DNA of 63,881 bases. Origin: Roseburia sp. (GTDB lineage Bacteria; Bacillota; Clostridia; Lachnospirales; Lachnospiraceae). Numbering within the stretch: the first letter of the stretch is position 1; each line of letters begins with the position of its first letter. Under the pieces are notes generated by a model. That model did no database searches and had not been told where the DNA came from. It saw nothing but the letters and a program-made list of their open reading frames with translations. The position numbers and the translations under genes were made by a program. The stretch is from NCBI GenBank assembly GCA_017549185.1, contig JAFYVJ010000068.1:1-63881 (forward strand), written 5' to 3'. Shown here piece after piece: positions 10,003 through 17,728 of the stretch.

Positions 10003-10365
10003 TTATTTAGTTTGTTCTAAATCACGCAATTCTTTTAATTTTTTTGCATACTCTACGAGTCGCTCTTTGTCAGCACTACAGTATACGTCAAATAGTACTT
10101 TGTCATTTTGATATATCCGGTGTGCAGTTTCCGCAGTGATTGCATCCAAAAGATATTTGTTAGAATCGGGCGTAGATTCGCCAGTTGCGAGATAATCTGC
10201 GCTTACTTGAAAATAGTCCGCAAGTTTTTTTAACCGTTCGTGAGTAGGCATGCTGTTTTTCCATTTGGAAACAGAACCATTGGAAAATCCGAGTTCTTTT
10301 TCTAAAGAACCTTGAGAAATTCCTTTCGATTTGCGGAGAGATTCAATTCTTTCATAAAAAGTCAT
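10003..10365 (-). CDS. XRE family transcriptional regulator
   Basis: A 120-residue regulator. The Cro/C1-type helix-turn-helix spans about residues 4-60 (R-I-E-S-L-R-K-S-K-G-I-S-Q then F-S-N-G-S-V-S-K-W and A-D-Y-F-Q-V-S-A-D-Y-L). A helical tail of about 55 residues may mediate dimerisation or sensing. AAGGAG lies upstream of the start. It is divergent from the pilin-like operon at 10639. The gap between them holds two near-identical palindromes, one overlapping the plus-strand promoter. Inference: it represses that operon and probably itself. Confidence 0.85.
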   Translation of the reverse strand: MTFYERIESLRKSKGISQGSLEKELGFSNGSVSKWKNSMPTHERLKKLADYFQVSADYLATGESTPDSNKYLLDAITAETAHRIYQNDKVLFDVYCSADKERLVEYAKKLKELRDLEQTK

Positions 10366-10382: not shown

Positions 10383-10429
10383 ACAGAAAAAAATCTGTAA
10401 AACAACTTGACAAATAGAAAAAAATCTAT
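10383..10429. promoter_or_regulatory. Twin palindromic operators, likely for the adjacent XRE regulator
   Basis: Two 16-bp sites with the same design: ACAGA-A6-TCTGT at 10383-10398 and ATAGA-A6-TCTAT at 10414-10429. Their centres are 31 bp apart, almost exactly three helical turns, so two bound dimers would lie on one DNA face. The second site fills the spacer between the -35 and -10 boxes of the plus-strand promoter; the first lies just upstream of the ribosome site of the XRE gene. Confidence 0.7.
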
Positions 10430-10434
10430 ATAAT
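10407..10434 (+). promoter_or_regulatory. Sigma-A promoter of the pilin-like operon
   Basis: A perfect -35 TTGACA (10407-10412) and -10 TATAAT (10429-10434) with a 16-bp spacer. The spacer is occupied by the second XRE-type palindrome, so repression by occlusion is expected. The start point near 10441 would give a leader of about 200 nt, AT-rich, before the gene at 10639. Confidence 0.75.
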
Positions 10435-10638: not shown

Positions 10639-10824
10639 ATGGAACAGGTATTAAAGCATTATGGAGATGCCATTCTTGTAGTGGTGGTATTACTTGCGTT
10701 AGGAGGGATACTGATAACAGCATTGACTTCTGACGGGTACGTAGCGGTTGCATTCAGAAGTGCAATAGAGGATTTCTTCAGTAGCATGAATGCATTGACA
10801 CCGGGTACAGTGCCAAATCCTTGA
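10639..10824 (+). CDS. Small leaderless pilin-like protein (first gene of Tad-like operon)
   Basis: A 61-residue protein. Residues 1-8 are polar (M-E-Q-V-L-K-H-Y), Gly9 follows, then one hydrophobic helix (about 11-30) and a short polar tail. There is no signal peptide or prepilin leader before the helix. AAGGAGG lies seven bases before the ATG. The pattern M-E-Q-x-x-x-x-Y-G-x-x-[IL]-L recurs in the products at 13854 and 14010 of the same operon. The size and hydrophobic N-terminus fit a Flp/pilin-like structural subunit that does not need cleavage. Function is inferred from the ATPase and TadB/C-like genes next to it. Confidence 0.6.
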   Translation: MEQVLKHYGDAILVVVVLLALGGILITALTSDGYVAVAFRSAIEDFFSSMNALTPGTVPNP

Positions 10825-10879
10825 TTTAAGGGAAAGAAAACTCCGGCAGTTATGCTGCCGGAGTATTTAGGAGGAGCAA

Positions 10880-11944
10880 ATGAGCGAATTAATTACATAT
10901 GAACCAACAACAGAACATTTTGGGGTATTTGGTAAATATATAGCAGAACCTAGTGTGACAGATATTGATTATAATGGCACAAGTCTGTGGATTACAGATT
11001 TTAAGAAAGGGCGTTATGAGGTGAAAGAGGAGATTTCGGAACAGTTTTTAAGTTCGTTTACTCATAATATTTCTAATTGTGTAAATAAACAATTTAATAA
11101 TGCGAATAAGGTGTTAGAAGCAGATACAAAGGAATTACGCATTAGTATTATTCATAGTTCTGCGGCTACTTCCGGAACCAGTATTTGTATTAGAAAATCA
11201 CCATGTTTTATAAGAAATACGATAGAGACTATGGTAAAGGAACGATACTGTCAACAGGAAGTTTTACAATTGTTGTTAAATTGCGTTCAAGCGAGGATGA
11301 ATTTTGTATTTGGAGGAGAACCAGGTAGTGGTAAGACAGAGTGTGCAAAGTTTTTTATGCAGTTTATACCGAAGGAGGAGAGGGTAATTACCATCGAAGA
11401 TTCTTTGGAGATTCATTATCCTGAGATTAATCCGGGGGCAGATGCGGTAGAACTTAGAATAGGTCCGGGATTTTCCTATACAGATGCTATTAAGGCATGT
11501 TTGCGCCAAAATCCAAAGTGGTTGGTTTTGTCAGAAGTACGTTCTGTGGAAGTGACCTCACTTTTAGAACAATGGAGCACTGGCGTAAATGGTTTTACAA
11601 CAATACATTTGGATGATTTGCGAAAACTTCCAGATCGAATACAGAATATGATGGATAATGTGAATGATGTGGAACGAATGGAGAATCGAATCTATCAGTA
11701 TGTAAACGTGGGGATATTGATACGTGTAATGGAGGAACAGGATGGACATATTCGGCGCTATATAGATCAGCTGTGCTTTTATAGTAGAGAAAATGATACG
11801 AATAAAGTTTATATGATTGTGAAAAATGGAGAAGTGGTTTCTAAAGAATTGCCACCGGACATTTTAAAAAAGTTTTCTTATGCAAATATAGAAGAGCCAT
11901 TTTTGTGTAAAGAATTTAAGCAGTATCAGAAAGAAGGAAGGTAA
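10880..11944 (+). CDS. CpaF/TadA-type secretion ATPase
   Basis: A 354-residue ATPase of the VirB11/GspE/CpaF superfamily that should power assembly of the pilus-like structure from the cytoplasmic side. The N-terminal domain is about 1-120. The nucleotide domain has Walker A G-E-P-G-S-G-K-T (146-153), the acidic box V-I-T-I-E-D-S-L-E (about 169-177), Walker B-like W-L-V-L-S-E-V-R-S (about 210-218) and the His box G-F-T-T-I-H-L-D-D. It is shorter than typical CpaF (about 450), lacking extra N-terminal sequence. AGGAGG precedes the ATG. The following gene starts directly after its stop. Confidence 0.85.
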   Translation: MSELITYEPTTEHFGVFGKYIAEPSVTDIDYNGTSLWITDFKKGRYEVKEEISEQFLSSFTHNISNCVNKQFNNANKVLEADTKELRISIIHSSAATSGTSICIRKSPCFIRNTIETMVKERYCQQEVLQLLLNCVQARMNFVFGGEPGSGKTECAKFFMQFIPKEERVITIEDSLEIHYPEINPGADAVELRIGPGFSYTDAIKACLRQNPKWLVLSEVRSVEVTSLLEQWSTGVNGFTTIHLDDLRKLPDRIQNMMDNVNDVERMENRIYQYVNVGILIRVMEEQDGHIRRYIDQLCFYSRENDTNKVYMIVKNGEVVSKELPPDILKKFSYANIEEPFLCKEFKQYQKEGR

Positions 11945-13375
11945 ATGAGAAAAAGGAGAATTATTAGAAGTTTACAGCTACTGAATCCTAAGAATCTTGT
12001 AAGAGAAGTTCATGTATATGGATATCATTTTTCCTGGAAAACACATTTATTGGCGTTGTTAGCTACATTGGCGGGAATGAGTGTGGTGAGTGTTTTATTT
12101 CAATTAAAACCCATTTATTTTAGTTGTGTTTTGGTGGCGGTATGTTTTATGTTGCCAATATTGATATTAGAGATGTATAAGGGGATGTTTGAACAGAAAA
12201 GATTTGCAGATGCAGTAACTTATGGAGAACAGATTTTATATTCTTTTCAGAAAAATGGTAAAGTGGTATCGGCTTTAAAGGAGACTAAGGAGATTTTTGA
12301 AGATGGCAGGATGAAGTGGGTGATTGAGGAGGCTATTTCATTTCTAGAAGACGGGAATTCCAATAGTGAAAAGGGCATTTTAAAAGAAGCTTTAGAGCAA
12401 ATTGAGCAGGCTTATAGCTGTAGCAAAATCCACATGATTCATGAATTGTTAATTAGTTGTGAAGAATTGGGGGGAGATGCAGGGAATTCGATATTATTAG
12501 TTTTAAACGATATTGAACTGTGGAAAAGAAGAGAATATTCACTGCAAGCAGGAAAAAAGGTACAGAATCGAGATAACGTGATATCCATTATTGTCTCGTT
12601 TGTGTTGTGTTTGATTACACTGTATGTTTTGGATGGTATGAGCCTGTTATTACCTAATAAAACGGTTGCCGGTTTATTTCCATTAGAAGTGATACAGATA
12701 TCGTCTTTTTTGTTTATCTTATTTATGCTGTTTGTGTTTTATAAAAGTAGAAAGTCTCTTACAAAAAGCTGGTTGCAACGGGAAACTTTATATAAACAAG
12801 ATTACATATTGGCAAGTTATGATTTGGTAATAAATTATGGTGAAAAGAATTGGTGGCAAAGAATATTAAGTAGAATACCTTATTATTTAGCCAAAAAAGA
12901 TATTAATCGGGAATTATATACTACGTTGCCACAGTGGCTGATGCAGATAGCTTTGTTGTTGCAGAATAATAATGTTCAGGTTTCATTGATGAAGTCTATA
13001 GAAGATGCTTCACCAGTACTGCAAAAGGAATTAGAAAGGCTTAGGGAGAGGCTTGAGATAAGGCCGAATGAATTGCAGTCGTATACAGAATTCTGTAAGA
13101 ATTTTGATATTCCGGAAGTGCAGAGTTGTATGAAAATGCTGCATGCTATTTCAGAGTCAGGAACAGGAAATGCACAGCTTCAGGTAAATAATTTGTTACA
13201 GCGTGTTCAGGAAATGCAGAATATAGCAGAAGATATTCGTAGTGGGAGTGATGCGTTTCAAATGAGATTATTGTTTTCATACCCTGTATTAGGTGTGACA
13301 ATTAAATTATTGGTGGATATGACAGTAGGAATGTTATATATATTCCAATTATTAAGTCAGGTTGGAGGTATGTAA
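11945..13375 (+). CDS. TadB/TadC-like membrane platform protein
   Basis: A 476-residue inner-membrane protein. Two transmembrane helices lie near 34-80, a cytoplasmic segment at about 85-205, two helices near 210-268, a second cytoplasmic segment at about 275-430 and a terminal helix near 440-468. Two T2SSF-like helical regions in one chain suggest a fused equivalent of TadB and TadC, the platform that couples the ATPase to subunit insertion (inference from layout and neighbours). It starts one base after the ATPase stop and its own stop lies inside the ribosome-site region of the next gene. Confidence 0.65.
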   Translation: MRKRRIIRSLQLLNPKNLVREVHVYGYHFSWKTHLLALLATLAGMSVVSVLFQLKPIYFSCVLVAVCFMLPILILEMYKGMFEQKRFADAVTYGEQILYSFQKNGKVVSALKETKEIFEDGRMKWVIEEAISFLEDGNSNSEKGILKEALEQIEQAYSCSKIHMIHELLISCEELGGDAGNSILLVLNDIELWKRREYSLQAGKKVQNRDNVISIIVSFVLCLITLYVLDGMSLLLPNKTVAGLFPLEVIQISSFLFILFMLFVFYKSRKSLTKSWLQRETLYKQDYILASYDLVINYGEKNWWQRILSRIPYYLAKKDINRELYTTLPQWLMQIALLLQNNNVQVSLMKSIEDASPVLQKELERLRERLEIRPNELQSYTEFCKNFDIPEVQSCMKMLHAISESGTGNAQLQVNNLLQRVQEMQNIAEDIRSGSDAFQMRLLFSYPVLGVTIKLLVDMTVGMLYIFQLLSQVGGM

Positions 13376-13376
13376 T

Positions 13377-13712
13377 ATGAGAAATATTATTGGGGCATTT
13401 GGTACGTTGATCATGTTATTGATTTATTTTTTCTCATGTATATCAGTTGGGAATGCAGGTATTGCGGTTGCAGCAGCAAAAGAATTCAAAGCAGAGGTAG
13501 TAGCGGAGATTGAAAATAGTAACTTTAATCCTAAAGTGATAGAAGGATGTATTAGGCAGGCCGAGAATGCAGGATATCAGCTCCAGGTTACTTCATGTAT
13601 GTATGATGAGAGATATAATATGCAGTCTGCCGAAGTTGTTTTGACATATAGTTATACCATTCCACTTTTAGGGATATCAGAAACGAGGACAACTAGGGGA
13701 ATTGCTAGGTGA
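13377..13712 (+). CDS. TadE/pseudopilin-like membrane protein
   Basis: A 111-residue protein with an N-terminal hydrophobic helix (about 7-32) and an extracytoplasmic domain. The domain contains one Cys pair (C-I-R-Q and T-S-C-M) and ends in Y-S-Y-T-I-P-L-L-G-I-S-E-T-R-T-T-R, which resembles TadE-like minor subunits. I choose ATG 13377 because GGAGG lies eight bases upstream; a TTG at 13362 would place that ribosome site inside the gene. Gly9 again precedes the hydrophobic core, as in the small pilin-like products of this operon. Confidence 0.6.
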   Translation: MRNIIGAFGTLIMLLIYFFSCISVGNAGIAVAAAKEFKAEVVAEIENSNFNPKVIEGCIRQAENAGYQLQVTSCMYDERYNMQSAEVVLTYSYTIPLLGISETRTTRGIAR

Positions 13713-13730
13713 GATTATGGAGAATCAGAT

Positions 13731-13838
13731 ATGAAGATGGTGATAGAAGAATTAGGGCAAACATTTATAGCATTGTTTTGCACAGGGTATATGATTGTTA
13801 TTTTTCTTGAGATTTTGAATGGGGTTACAGCGTTTTAG
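13731..13838 (+). CDS. Very small membrane protein of the pilin-like operon (35 aa)
   Basis: A 35-codon gene: M-K-M-V-I-E-E-L-G then a hydrophobic helix (Q-T-F-I-A-L-F...) to the end. GGAG lies eight bases before the ATG. The N-terminal spacing (eight residues, then Gly9, then helix) matches the other small products at 10639, 13854 and 14010, which supports it as a real gene despite its size. It is probably a membrane or minor filament subunit. Confidence 0.5.
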   Translation: MKMVIEELGQTFIALFCTGYMIVIFLEILNGVTAF

Positions 13839-13853
13839 AAAAGGGGGATAAAA

Positions 13854-14000
13854 TTGCAGGAGATAATGGAACATTATGGCATAGCACTGCTAGCGGTTAT
13901 TGCAGTAACAGGAGCGATGGGAATGATATGTAGTTGTATGGGAGCTGATGGAATAGTTTGCCAAATAGTTGGTATTTTCATGCAAAGTATATGTGGATAG
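13854..14000 (+). CDS. Small leaderless pilin-like protein (48 aa, TTG start)
   Basis: A 48-residue protein beginning at TTG 13854, with AAGGGGG six bases upstream. With this start the N-terminus reads M-Q-E-I-M-E-H-Y-G-I-A-L-L and aligns without gaps with M-E-Q-V-L-K-H-Y-G-D-A-I-L from 10639. The alternative ATG at 13866 sits only three bases after an AGGAG and would lose this match. A hydrophobic helix (about 10-28) and a short tail with four cysteines (C-S-C, C-Q and C-G) follow, suggesting disulphide bonding. A paralogue of the first pilin-like gene. Confidence 0.55.
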   Translation: MQEIMEHYGIALLAVIAVTGAMGMICSCMGADGIVCQIVGIFMQSICG

Positions 14001-14009
14001 GAGAACTAT

Positions 14010-14516
14010 ATGGAGCAAATAGGAAGTTTGTATGGGAAATTTATTCTGGAGGGAATCGTTGTTGTATGTCTGGCTGGTTTTTTGTTTTGTAATATTTCAG
14101 ATACGGATGGAAACGCAGGAATGCTAGAAATGATAGGGAGTAACTTACCTAAAATAGATGAGAAATATGATTCTTATACAGATTTTAAAGAGGTTTATAA
14201 AGAAGAGAGTAATAAAGATGCACCGAAAATATTTTTGATTGCAGGAGCAGTTGATATTGGGAAAATAAAACTGTCTCAGATAATAAAGGCCGTTGATTAT
14301 AGTGGAAGTGAAATAAAATTGGAAGTAATGAGTATTAAAAATATGCAGAATGAGGAATTAATAGAGAATTATAATTTGGAGACGATGGAAATAGATTTAA
14401 CGAATGCTGGAGTTTATTCCGTGTTGGTTAAAGCTACAGATGATGGGAACAGAACAACCGAATGCCAGATAAAAATACCTGTTAATAATAAGCAGCTATT
14501 GGAGGATGTGGATTGA
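14010..14516 (+). CDS. Membrane-anchored protein with Ig-like outer domain
   Basis: A 168-residue protein whose N-terminus M-E-Q-I-G-S-L-Y-G-K-F-I-L matches the short pilin-like products. A helix (about 10-28) follows, then a linker and a beta-rich domain (about 68-165). That domain has A-G-V-Y-S-V-L-V-K-A-T-D-D-G-N and ends I-K-I-P-V, similar to the bacterial Ig-like DUF5011 type. It may be a long minor pilin or tip subunit: the same anchoring helix with an added outer domain. GGAG precedes the ATG; the stop overlaps the next start (TTGA). Confidence 0.6.
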   Translation: MEQIGSLYGKFILEGIVVVCLAGFLFCNISDTDGNAGMLEMIGSNLPKIDEKYDSYTDFKEVYKEESNKDAPKIFLIAGAVDIGKIKLSQIIKAVDYSGSEIKLEVMSIKNMQNEELIENYNLETMEIDLTNAGVYSVLVKATDDGNRTTECQIKIPVNNKQLLEDVD

Positions 14517-14890
14517 AAAATGTAGTGTTAATACTTAATGGGATGGTATTGTTGTTGCTATCATTAATAATACTTATGGCTATTTATGGAAGAATGAATC
14601 ACAGTATGGAATTACAAAGTAATTTGTCTTCTGTAATGGAAGAACAGATAAACGAGATGATGTTGAATGAGGAATATAGTATTACCAATACCCAGGAATT
14701 TCTGACGGATTTTATAGGAAACCTAGTCGTAGCATTAGATGGAAAATATGATTTAACCATAGATGTGTTACAGGTAGATATGGAAAAGGGGATTTTATCA
14801 GTGAGAGTGACGGCTGATTTTCTTTATCTGAATGGAAATCGAGGAACAACAGTATGCGAGCGAACGGTGATTTTTGATAGGTTACAGTAG
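14513..14890 (+). CDS. TadE-like small membrane protein (TTG start)
   Basis: A 125-residue protein with an N-terminal helix (about 4-24) and a mixed outer domain ending in R-T-V-I-F-D-R-L-Q. The start is TTG at 14513, overlapping the previous stop by three bases, with GGAGG about eight bases upstream. Size and topology fit a TadE-like minor subunit. No catalytic motif is visible. Confidence 0.55.
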   Translation: MKNVVLILNGMVLLLLSLIILMAIYGRMNHSMELQSNLSSVMEEQINEMMLNEEYSITNTQEFLTDFIGNLVVALDGKYDLTIDVLQVDMEKGILSVRVTADFLYLNGNRGTTVCERTVIFDRLQ

Positions 14891-14908: not shown

Positions 14909-17728
14909 GTGAGGATAAAAAAGAAAATTAGTTTAGTAGGAATATTGTTGTTAGCTTTGATATTGGTGTATTTTAGTGTTCAAATACAAGAAAGTCCTAA
15001 AGTGAGGCAAGAAGTAGTGATTGCTGTTTTGGATACGGGATATTCTGGTGAAAGCAGTCGTGTATTGAAAGGAATTGCAGTACTTGAAAGTGAAAAGAAT
15101 GCTTGGGATAATAATGGACATGGAACTGGAATTACACAAATTATTTTAGAGGAAACCGATGATTGGGTTCAGATTTTACCTATAAAAATTGCTGATTATA
15201 CGGGATGCTCAACGGAAGAAGCTGCGTATCAAGGGGTGAAATATGCAATGGAATATGGTGTGGATATCATACATATGTCATTGAATATGAGTAATTTGGA
15301 TGAAAATAGTAAATTGGTTGGGATAGTGAAAGAAGCAATTGCAGAAGGAATCGAGATTGTAGTATCAGCCGGAAATAGCGGGAAAGATACCATTAGAGTG
15401 TTTCCAGCTAATATAGAAGATGCGATTGTAGTGAGTGCAGTAGATGAAGAGGAGGAGTTTTGTCGTTATAGTAATTATGGAGAGACAATAGATTTTGCAG
15501 CAGCAGGTTTTTATAAAGGAGAGTCGGGGACTTCCTATGCAGCGGCCAGAGTGACAGGGATGTTGGCTAAAGAATACAGCAATGGTGGTAGTACAGAGAC
15601 GTTGCGAGAGTTAACTGTTGATAAGGGGATAAAAGGAAAAGACGTTTATTATGGGTATGGTGTTTTACGGTGTTCCGCAAAGATTGAGGAAGATAGAAAA
15701 GAAAGAATATATGTAGGGAAGTCCAAATATGACATAGGATATAAAATACTTGATATTGACTGGCACAAGACGGATATGGAGTTGTTAGATAAATATTTTG
15801 TAGAGACTCATGCTGCTTATGTGGGAATGTATTTATCAAAACTAGAAGAAGCAGAATTAGAACAGCTGAAAAAGAAATCAGAAATATTGGATTCAATGGT
15901 TTTGGTACAGGAGTTTGCCTGCATGAACAAAACAGGAAATTATGAGGAAAAATTATCCTACGAAGAAGGGTTTGTAGAAAATGCTATAAGAGAATACATG
16001 AAACATGAAGAGGAGTTAACGATTTCTGCGGAATGGCTAATATTAAACAAATATGGGTATTTTGTGATTTCATCTGATAATCGAAATGATATTTTTCATT
16101 TTCGAATAAATGGATTTGCTTATACAACTATAACGGAATCCAAGTGGTTTCCAATGTTTAATCCTGAAAAATTTACGATTACCAGGACAATAGTGAAGCA
16201 GACTACTGATTTTGGTGCAGTGGATATAGCTGGTTTTTCTACATATCTATGTTCAGGAAACAGTTTTGCGTCAGAGTATACGAATCCTGTTACAGGAAAA
16301 GTCTATGCAGAGGATAATCTTTATTCGATAGACATGGAAGTTGATGATGGTACGGAAAATTACGGATTATCTATTATTTTAGAGGGTTATAAAAATGTGA
16401 AGGAAGGTTATCATACAGAGGAAGCAGACATTGTGTTAATACCATATGATTATACACACGCTCATGAGAAATATACTTATGAAGAATATAAAGCACCTTT
16501 GCGATATGTTTTTTCGTATTATGATGGATCTACTAATAATGGTGGGTATGCTGATACACCACAAAGAGTAGAGGCACAAGAAAAAAACTTTATGAAATTA
16601 ATAAAAACAAATCAGACTGTATGGTACAACGGAGTCTATAAGAAAGGATATGATTATAGTGATGTAGATGAGATGTTAAGTTTAGAAGAAAAAATTTCAA
16701 AGTATTTAAAATCATATTCGAAAAAAGTTATTAAAAATGTGAATATATATTCAGAAGAATCCTCCCTAAGTGATAGTGGATTTACGATAAATGCAGATTT
16801 AGAAGCGTCGTTAGGAATACAGTGGAATCATGGAGAAACTGCTACGATTGCAGTGCAGAATGATATTCCGGAATATAATTTTCCGTTAGTTTTGAATAAA
16901 TATGAGATTGTTTATAATGGAAATGGGGCAACAGCAGGTGGAATGTCAAATACTTCTATGGTGTATAATGAGGCGAAAGCACTGGAAGAAAATCAGTATA
17001 GCAGGCGTGGATATTCATTTTTAGGATGGTCTACTACAGAGAACGGAGAAGTGGAGTATTTGGATGGACAGGAAGTATGTAACTTGTCTTTAGAGCACAA
17101 TGTGCAGGTTGTTTTGTATGCAGTTTGGGATGAATATCCGTGGATTATAGCTGAGGATTTATATTTTTCATTAGAAGAAGCACAAAATGGAACGATTACA
17201 TATGAGAGATTGATGGAATATGCGAGAGCAAAAGATAGAGAAGCCGGTGGTGTAATTTTACCTGGAATTGATGAAGAAAAAGGGACTACATTTATTATGG
17301 TAGATTATGCAGAGTCAAATTATACCGAATTGTTGCAGGAAGATGATGTTGCGGTAACTTATCAGGTTATAGATAGTGTAGGAAACATATATGAAAAGCT
17401 AATTACGGTTCATATAATAAATACCACTCCAAAGGAGAAGTTGCCAATAGGAAGGACACGTTTCATTAGTGAAAAATATTATATGAGAACCTATGAAGAT
17501 GGCGGTTTAGAGACAAATTCAATCTGGAAAACGAATGAGGATTATAGGAATACCATTGTAAGTGCTTTTGAGAATAGCAAAAACAAAACACCAATTTATA
17601 CCTTTAGATTATCTTATGAGGACATAGTATTGATGAAAGAAGTTATTCGGAAGAAGGGACTGAGAAATACAGAAAGTACAGATGTACTACAGTATTTCTA
17701 TGAAAATTTTTTGCCCGATTTCGTATGA
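14909..17728 (+). CDS. Membrane-anchored subtilisin-like (S8) protease with InlB-type repeat
   Basis: A 939-residue protein beginning at GTG 14909 with AGGAGAG upstream. The N-terminal helix (about 7-25) is a signal anchor. The S8 domain (about 35-255) has the full triad: Asp42 (V-L-D-T-G), His71 (N-G-H-G-T-G) and Ser209 (S-G-T-S-Y-A-A), with oxyanion Asn156 (S-A-G-N-S-G). There is no propeptide of usual length between anchor and catalytic domain. A long middle region (about 260-665) is unrecognised. A Listeria-Bacteroides (Flg_new/InlB B) repeat lies at about 668-735 with R-R-G-Y-S-F-L-G-W. Last gene of the Tad-like operon; it may process secreted subunits or the host surface (inference). 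Confidence 0.8.
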   Translation: MRIKKKISLVGILLLALILVYFSVQIQESPKVRQEVVIAVLDTGYSGESSRVLKGIAVLESEKNAWDNNGHGTGITQIILEETDDWVQILPIKIADYTGCSTEEAAYQGVKYAMEYGVDIIHMSLNMSNLDENSKLVGIVKEAIAEGIEIVVSAGNSGKDTIRVFPANIEDAIVVSAVDEEEEFCRYSNYGETIDFAAAGFYKGESGTSYAAARVTGMLAKEYSNGGSTETLRELTVDKGIKGKDVYYGYGVLRCSAKIEEDRKERIYVGKSKYDIGYKILDIDWHKTDMELLDKYFVETHAAYVGMYLSKLEEAELEQLKKKSEILDSMVLVQEFACMNKTGNYEEKLSYEEGFVENAIREYMKHEEELTISAEWLILNKYGYFVISSDNRNDIFHFRINGFAYTTITESKWFPMFNPEKFTITRTIVKQTTDFGAVDIAGFSTYLCSGNSFASEYTNPVTGKVYAEDNLYSIDMEVDDGTENYGLSIILEGYKNVKEGYHTEEADIVLIPYDYTHAHEKYTYEEYKAPLRYVFSYYDGSTNNGGYADTPQRVEAQEKNFMKLIKTNQTVWYNGVYKKGYDYSDVDEMLSLEEKISKYLKSYSKKVIKNVNIYSEESSLSDSGFTINADLEASLGIQWNHGETATIAVQNDIPEYNFPLVLNKYEIVYNGNGATAGGMSNTSMVYNEAKALEENQYSRRGYSFLGWSTTENGEVEYLDGQEVCNLSLEHNVQVVLYAVWDEYPWIIAEDLYFSLEEAQNGTITYERLMEYARAKDREAGGVILPGIDEEKGTTFIMVDYAESNYTELLQEDDVAVTYQVIDSVGNIYEKLITVHIINTTPKEKLPIGRTRFISEKYYMRTYEDGGLETNSIWKTNEDYRNTIVSAFENSKNKTPIYTFRLSYEDIVLMKEVIRKKGLRNTESTDVLQYFYENFLPDFV

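Follow-up and report, generated by a model that had tools for sequence, protein, structure and literature searches.

The 63,881-nucleotide contig JAFYVJ010000068.1 of Roseburia sp. (assembly GCA_017549185.1; Lachnospiraceae), here called the window, carries at 10639-14890 on its forward strand an operon of eight genes, separated by 55, 0, 1, 18, 15, 9 and -4 bases, that encodes a secretion ATPase, a membrane platform and several short proteins with a shared N-terminal plan (Table 1). The gene for a subtilase of 939 amino acids (aa) begins 18 bases past the operon end. Ten products were scanned: the ATPase (T2SSE) and the subtilase (S8, Listeria-Bacteroides repeat) alone passed a Pfam cut-off, and no product passed an NCBIfam cut-off.

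Table 1. Features of the operon and its immediate surroundings, with positions in the window.
Feature	Position	Strand	Basis
XRE-type helix-turn-helix (HTH) regulator, transcribed divergently to the operon; possibly a local repressor	10003..10365	-	translation; HTH assigned by eye
Inverted repeat ACAGAAAAAAATCTGT, candidate operator 1	10383..10398	.	pattern search with shuffles
Consensus promoter TTGACA-16-TATAAT; spacer holds the second inverted repeat ATAGAAAAAAATCTAT (10414-10429)	10407..10434	+	12/12 consensus matches
Gene 1: 61-aa micro-pilin, proposed major subunit	10639..10824	+	class in 49/52 loci
Strong hairpin in the gap after gene 1, before the ATPase gene; proposed to favour the mRNA of gene 1	10840..10864	.	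folding against shuffles
Secretion ATPase, T2SSE / VirB11 / CpaF class, own clade	10880..11944	+	Pfam, NCBIfam, PDB relatives, tree
Membrane platform, a single chain of two F-type halves, the first TadB-like and the second TadB/TadC-like	11945..13375	+	hhalign
111-aa protein with the shared N-terminal plan, a single helix and an extracytoplasmic domain; proposed minor subunit, TadE position	13377..13712	+	47/52 loci
35-aa micro-protein (MKMVIEELG...)	13731..13838	+	30-39-aa class in 41/52 loci
48-aa micro-protein, TTG start (MQEIMEHYG...)	13854..14000	+	class in 38/52 loci
168-aa micro-pilin, G9-KFIL-E14, ectodomain at the C-terminus; proposed adapter or tip pilin	14010..14516	+	class in 38/52 loci
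Gene 8: 125-aa membrane-anchored protein (123-225 aa in relatives); proposed minor subunit, TadF position	14513..14890	+	44/52 loci
Subtilase (S8) with Listeria-Bacteroides repeat, at a place taken by other large secreted proteins in relatives; possible cargo or tip-associated factor	14909..17728	+	domain scan

Five of the translations start in a similar way, with MEQVLKHYG (10639, 61 aa), MRNIIGAFG (13377, 111 aa), MKMVIEELG (13731, 35 aa), MQEIMEHYG (13854, TTG start, 48 aa) and MEQIGSLYG (14010, 168 aa), each with a hydrophobic stretch after it. The start caller chose an ATG at 13866 instead of the TTG at 13854, which agrees with 48-aa orthologues beginning at the same place. To count this plan we considered starts preceded by a Shine-Dalgarno (SD) sequence and followed by hydrophobic residues at positions 10-27. 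Around the ATPase in 52 loci, M-x6-[YFH]-G occurs in 140 of 327 such starts on the coding strand versus none of eight on the opposite strand, a small control. Across the whole window it is found in four of 22 starts that pass the rule, all four inside the operon; the product at 13731, with Leu at position 8, is not among them. An earlier note on this DNA, made from the letters alone, had described the operon as Tad-like, its several short proteins sharing an N-terminal plan; the five N-termini are as it described them, and the plan recurs in the relatives.

The 52 loci comprise the window, 24 of the 25 closest loci from a collection of genome contigs and 27 regions from 26 further genomes; L061 was excluded, as it is apparently the same contig as L062, to which it is equal in length. 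ATPase identity is 60-80% in the 25 closest loci, of which 21 are labelled Roseburia. The gene set is conserved, with the ATPase in 52 loci, the platform in 50, gene 1 in 49, the 111-aa protein in 47, gene 8 in 44, the 35-aa class in 41 and the 48-aa and ectodomain micro-pilin classes in 38 each; several absences are contig ends, and the 30-39-aa class takes in a few misassigned open reading frames (ORFs). Genes in relatives were called with our own simple caller, which misplaced some starts and, for the class counts, weighted starts upward for certain residues at position 8 and slightly so at position 9. The sequences are related by descent, and the counts are not independent events.

The short frames show the constraint expected of coding sequence. 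Over codons 2-9 of gene 1, 24 Roseburia-type copies differ at 0.165, 0.000 and 0.427 in the first, second and third codon positions, versus 0.62 in the 30 bases upstream; the corresponding values are 0.49, 0.35 and 0.65 for the 48-aa gene (14 copies) and 0.52, 0.30 and 0.66 for the 35-aa gene (9 copies). Together with their conservation beside a clade-specific ATPase, this rules out that the short frames are non-genes, an outcome that the earlier note had named as fatal to its proposal.

By profile comparison gene 1 and the 35-aa and 48-aa genes form one family (96-97%; 97% for the 48-aa gene against gene 1), and the N-terminus of the 111-aa protein resembles gene 1 at 82%. Position 8 of gene 1 is Tyr in 46 of 52 copies and position 9 is Gly in 48, Thr in two and Ser in two; distant copies begin with MKTFMEEYG, MKEIFEQYG or MQEIMKEYG, and in L061 gene 1 begins with MEQIIKHFT and so lacks Gly9. 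Gly9 is present in 30 of 44 copies of the 35-aa class and 35 of 39 of the 48-aa class. Membership of the 168-aa class was decided by the [YFH]G motif, and its own share of Gly9 is therefore no evidence; two genes resembling it (L063, L082) have Ser9. The 168-aa product of the window has a weak, under cut-off match to InlK_D3 (E 0.0048), and in L080 the frame of gene 8 continues to 871 aa with a Listeria-Bacteroides repeat.

The ATPase passes the Pfam cut-off for T2SSE (4.2e-19). Among NCBIfam models it scores 102 bits as VirB11, far from the equivalog cut-off of ~250 bits, 83 bits as TadA-type, also under cut-off, and 56 bits as ComGA. Its PDB relatives are 2oap (titled type II secretion system protein), VirB11-like proteins and CpaF (E 4.7e-15). 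The nucleotide motifs are intact, with GxPxxGKT in 46 of 48 relatives and GLVGTGKT in the remaining two. In a tree, one very long branch (100/100) divides 32 ATPases of this system from 16 canonical ones, which come from the same and related genomes.

The platform reaches no Pfam cut-off and matches no NCBIfam family at E 1. In hhalign comparisons, for which the alignments are small, its N-terminal half matches canonical TadB at 96% and TadC at 0.6%, and its C-terminal half gives 84% against TadB and, against TadC, 59% when nine sequences are used or 91% with an earlier set of three; the whole chain matches the nine TadC at 38%. TadB and TadC are described as having arisen by fission of a two-domain ancestor whose N-terminal half aligns best with TadC (PMC6668835, in excerpt). 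Because the N-terminal half is TadB-like here, the single chain suggests a re-fusion or a TadB duplication, and not the ancestral platform.

An ATPase search of 200 family genomes returned, apart from the own genome, 26 genomes at 39-60% identity, separated by a gap from general matches near 30%. With the platform profile the system was found in 50 of 397 Lachnospiraceae genomes and 43 of 334 genera, own genome included, and some genomes carry two or three operon copies (e.g. G680). Six of 391 genomes of the class matched: the own genome, one family member, G295 and G529, which are two convincing carriers from other families, and G575 and G507, whose weak matches are frames of ~290 aa beside canonical Tad ATPases. 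There was no carrier other than the own genome among 398 genomes of the phylum, and 72,556 plasmid records contained no match. With the platform protein, tblastn gave weak matches in unannotated faecal 'Bacteriophage sp.' records (MT837507.1, MT835474.1, MT838642.1), which may be bacterial contigs.

The conserved gene set, the coding constraint, the shared N-terminal plan, the homology of ATPase and platform and an acidic residue at +5 in three classes, discussed below, make it probable that the operon encodes a compact type IV filament machine of Tad descent. In it the ATPase would drive the two-domain platform, and one-helix micro-pilins would be pulled from the membrane into a thin pilus. 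Gene 1 would provide the main subunit; the 35-, 48- and 168-aa proteins would be minor or adapter subunits, the last carrying an ectodomain; the 111-aa and 125-aa proteins would fill the TadE and TadF positions, and the adjacent secreted protein, here the subtilase, may be a cargo or tip factor. Residues 1-9 would form a class III leader of very small size, with a peptidase of the canonical Tad locus probably cleaving it in trans after Gly9.

Several observations weigh against this reading. The ATPase fits the VirB11 model better than the TadA-type one. Pilin cut-offs are missed by every micro-pilin: none of 43 gene 1 members is over that of Flp_Fap or Flp1_like, and each of the two models matches only five members (best E 0.01 and 0.0033), matches which are unspecific, since an unrelated viral envelope family matches seven (best E 0.0014). 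In PDB searches with the gene 1 profile PilA (E 0.093) ranks behind the conjugation protein TraM (0.011) and near designed proteins (0.26), and the 44% match of gene 1 to Flp1 extends over 20 C-terminal columns only. Neither the 111-aa nor the 125-aa protein shows TadE homology in hhalign comparisons with a small set of nine canonical TadE-type sequences, and canonical TadE gave no signal with the 111-aa protein (3.3% and 0.8%). Gene 1, the supposed main pilin, lacks Glu at position 14 in all 52 copies (Ala in 33). Moreover, genes for A24 prepilin peptidases are found in 199 of 200 family genomes, and because of this base rate their presence in carriers of the operon is uninformative.

In L050 (frame ~10937-11180) and L053 (10970-11188) an extra small two-helix protein is encoded behind the 111-aa gene, and its second helix passes the Flp1_like cut-off (41-43 bits). 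It was rejected as a leaderless pilin, as its internal ATG is not preceded by an SD sequence and the frame opens upstream with the first helix; the gene may be what remains of a canonical Flp1 gene within the operon.

A class III signal consists of a hydrophilic leader of variable length up to a Gly or Ala, followed by a hydrophobic stretch that often, not always, has Glu at +5 (PMC10191384, in excerpt). Mature Flp pilins carry E5 and Y6 (PMC3244431, in excerpt), and G/xxxxE is a published type IV prepilin pattern (PMC12075869, in excerpt). In 107 sequences of the 35-, 48- and 168-aa classes, 22 of the 23 acidic residues at helix positions 11-26, which were prefiltered for hydrophobicity, fall at position 14 and the other at 26. 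Position 14 is +5 after Gly9, the place of Glu5 if Gly9 is -1. Glu or Asp occupies it in 2/33, 8/37 and 12/37 members of the 35-, 48- and 168-aa classes, respectively, the last being 12 of 22 Roseburia-type versus none of 15 distant copies, and the 168-aa product of the window itself reads MEQIGSLYG-KFILE. Residues 1-9 of these three classes thus probably represent a very short leader of at most nine residues, and the claims of the earlier note that the proteins are leaderless and never need leader cleavage are probably wrong. The note had also named a prepilin peptidase acting on longer precursors as a finding that would refute it. For gene 1 a longer precursor made from an upstream start is unlikely and was rejected, with SD-preceded in-frame starts in six of 52 copies, five of them within three codons; in the 35-, 48- and 168-aa classes such starts are present in 7/33, 10/39 and 5/39 copies.

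Given the machine, cleavage of the leader in trans appears likely, and a retained N-terminus doubtful. An initial view, in which the two were close to evenly balanced and retention slightly likelier, was dropped once the acidic residues were found at +5. Among the alternatives to the filament machine with cleaved leaders, the one that survives best is nevertheless the same machine without prepilin processing, which we consider unlikely overall: the main subunit, perhaps all subunits, would start at its own Met and be assembled uncut, keeping nine N-terminal residues with an 8-residue amphipathic stretch that ends in Tyr-Gly. Gene 1 is the likeliest uncut subunit, with no Glu at +5 in 52 copies and Gly9 replaced by Thr or Ser in four. 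Its residues 1-8 have a net charge of 0 or -1 in 48 of 52 copies and are without Lys or Arg in two. Residues 2-9 are also its least variable part, with an entropy of 1.54 versus 2.01 (10-27) and 2.79 (28-42) in 26 copies, but position 9 was prefiltered to Gly, Ser, Ala or Thr in this set. Fifteen canonical Flp1 sequences extracted from carrier genomes, with Gly (10) or Ala (5) at -1, are least variable in the mature part (0.65), and their leaders are at 1.63; because this is about the variability of gene 1 residues 2-9, N-terminal entropy cannot tell a leader from a retained N-terminus. Position 9 is Gly or Ala in 9 of 46 copies of the 111-aa protein and 3 of 43 of the 125-225-aa protein, with no site at a fixed position in either and no acidic residue at position 14, but a Gly or Ala occurs somewhere within positions 6-12 in 37/46 and 31/43.

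Profile registers give conflicting placements of Gly9. Flp_Fap places E7-Y8-G9 of L069, L071 and L072 on mature E5-Y6-G7 (profile positions 12-14, with PilA as yardstick), as uncut subunits would have it, whereas Flp1_like sets Gly9 of L069 at -1, the alignment of L084 and L085 (MQEFLRENG, next to canonical leaders like ...REEDG) is also leader-like, and the PilA chain aligns at an offset of 7. The register with Gly9 at -1 is preferred because the acidic residues are confined to +5 in three classes.

The absence of a peptidase gene from the operon would also suit uncut subunits. In a whole-genome search of the own genome, whose assembly is 70% complete, A24 matches were found on another contig only and none at the operon; that contig carries a canonical Tad locus with an ATPase, a Flp1_like pilin and two A24 peptidases. 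All 53 carriers tested (27/27 and 26/26; one of them, G045, has only a cut ATPase) encode A24 peptidases elsewhere than in the operon, with no listed place less than 0.9 Mb from it on the same contig, and a carrier lacking A24, which would be a natural test of cleavage, was not found among the 53. The absence of a prepilin peptidase reported in the earlier note is therefore confirmed for the operon and does not hold for the genome. The Myxococcus Kil system shows that the peptidase encoded in an operon is not necessarily the one that processes the major pilin, as another is thought to do so there (PMC12075869, in excerpt).

A further possibility, which we rate somewhat below uncut subunits, is that the micro-proteins form a secretion pseudopilus rather than a surface pilus, a short piston serving to export the large secreted protein encoded next to the operon. 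Downstream, a large ORF whose start crudely resembles a signal peptide is present in at least 24 of 54 loci, and its domains vary. Among 12 downstream proteins scanned, some of them cut pieces, nine have an over-cut-off S8, immunoglobulin-like (Ig-like), SH3, beta-helix, Gly-rich or Listeria-Bacteroides-type repeat domain; that of L065 has none, and those of L125 and one of L045 have sub-threshold repeats only. However, these proteins start like ordinary Sec substrates, for which a second export step is unnecessary in a monoderm host such as the Lachnospiraceae; in the remaining 30 loci, several of them truncated by contig ends, this rule finds no such ORF. In the filament machine the downstream protein may, from its position, be a tip or cargo factor. 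The closely related locus L037 (12349-15567) has an S8 subtilase with Listeria-Bacteroides repeat in the same arrangement behind the operon. L038 (12450-15865) and L052 (12483-15864) have a lipoprotein-like gene (SH3 in L038) and then a large secreted protein; the VGRYxxNYTG segment close to the start of that protein also occurs in the flanks of L045 and L060.

Finally, a remnant or variant type IV secretion (conjugation) system is very improbable, as the higher VirB11 than TadA-type score (102 versus 83 bits) and the rank of TraM as top PDB match of the gene 1 profile (E 0.011) are set against a score far under the VirB11 cut-off, a TadB-like platform, the lack of VirB4, a coupling protein (VirD4) or a relaxase among the ten products to which the scan extended, and the plasmid records without a match.

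The Tad-derived filament machine can be compared with several known systems. With the Tad/Flp (type IVc) pilus it shares a CpaF-class ATPase, a TadB/TadC-type platform, a one-helix main subunit of ~55-60 aa, two larger membrane-anchored proteins and G/xxxxE in part of the minor micro-pilins. It differs in the unlinked TadV, the single-chain platform, the several related micro-pilins, the lack of a subunit over a pilin cut-off and the ATPase in its own clade, and neither RcpA nor RcpC was seen among the operon products. That TadZ is lacking, as the earlier note had it, is true of the window; in relatives a TadZ-like gene (~180-225 aa; 21% to canonical TadZ) lies upstream of gene 1 in 13 of 52 loci (L040-L045, L047, L048, L051, L052, L057, L060 and L070). 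The TadZ-like or ParA-like protein has a degenerate P-loop-like start, e.g. FWGETRQCGTTAN, and three scanned reached no Pfam cut-off.

Tad-like loci lacking an apparent prepilin signal peptide in every product have been reported previously from Clostridia (Imam et al., 2011; PMC3244431). These five loci carry tadV, tadZ and rcpC, and 'with the exception of tadA' their genes stand far from other Clostridial tad genes. Compared by description, these Gram-positive loci resemble the present operon in host group and in the lack of an apparent signal peptide, but here tadV is unlinked and the ATPase very distant. The Com pilus, with its peptidase gene outside the operon, shares the minimal design; in contrast, the platform halves here match TadB/TadC, and the ATPase scores lower as ComGA than as TadA-type. 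In monoderms that pilus has an ATPase, one platform and about five small subunits (PMC10191384, in excerpt). MSH pilus loci all lack a prepilin peptidase at the locus, like this operon, and may use that of another system (PMC6668835, in excerpt), but are restricted to a few Proteobacteria (PMC10191384, in excerpt). We found no description of this operon architecture in the literature, subscription papers and preprints not being covered.

Upstream of the operon, an inverted repeat with the consensus A[CT]AGAAAAAAATCT[AG]T has two perfect copies in 10383-10434, the first adjoining the divergent XRE-type gene and the second in the promoter spacer. With at most one mismatch it matches twice in the window (expected 0.04), and none of 100 shuffles had two matches; promoter-like sites in the window number 31 and are no commoner than in shuffles (35.4). 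This arrangement would fit an autoregulated switch in which the regulator possibly represses both the operon and itself; a homologue of the regulator is present in one of 53 related loci (L067). The gap between gene 1 and the ATPase gene is below 40 bases (unscored) in 26 of 50 cases and at least 50 bases in 24. Three of these long gaps span a second gene 1 copy, and 20 of the other 21 fold at z < -1.5 against mononucleotide shuffles (the exception is L046), although that of L084 holds a further short frame and L065, L066 and L088 are near relatives. By the rule of the tool the hairpin of the window is no terminator on the + strand and is terminator-like on the - strand. We read it as favouring gene 1 transcripts, which would fit an abundant subunit.

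The operon adds a probable surface filament to many Lachnospiraceae, with subunits that are too small and divergent for current family models and are therefore missed by annotation. It also provides natural cases in which the requirements of a type IV pilin can be tested, namely a main subunit that lacks Glu5, a leader of at most nine residues, some copies without the cleavage glycine, and an operon without a peptidase gene of its own.

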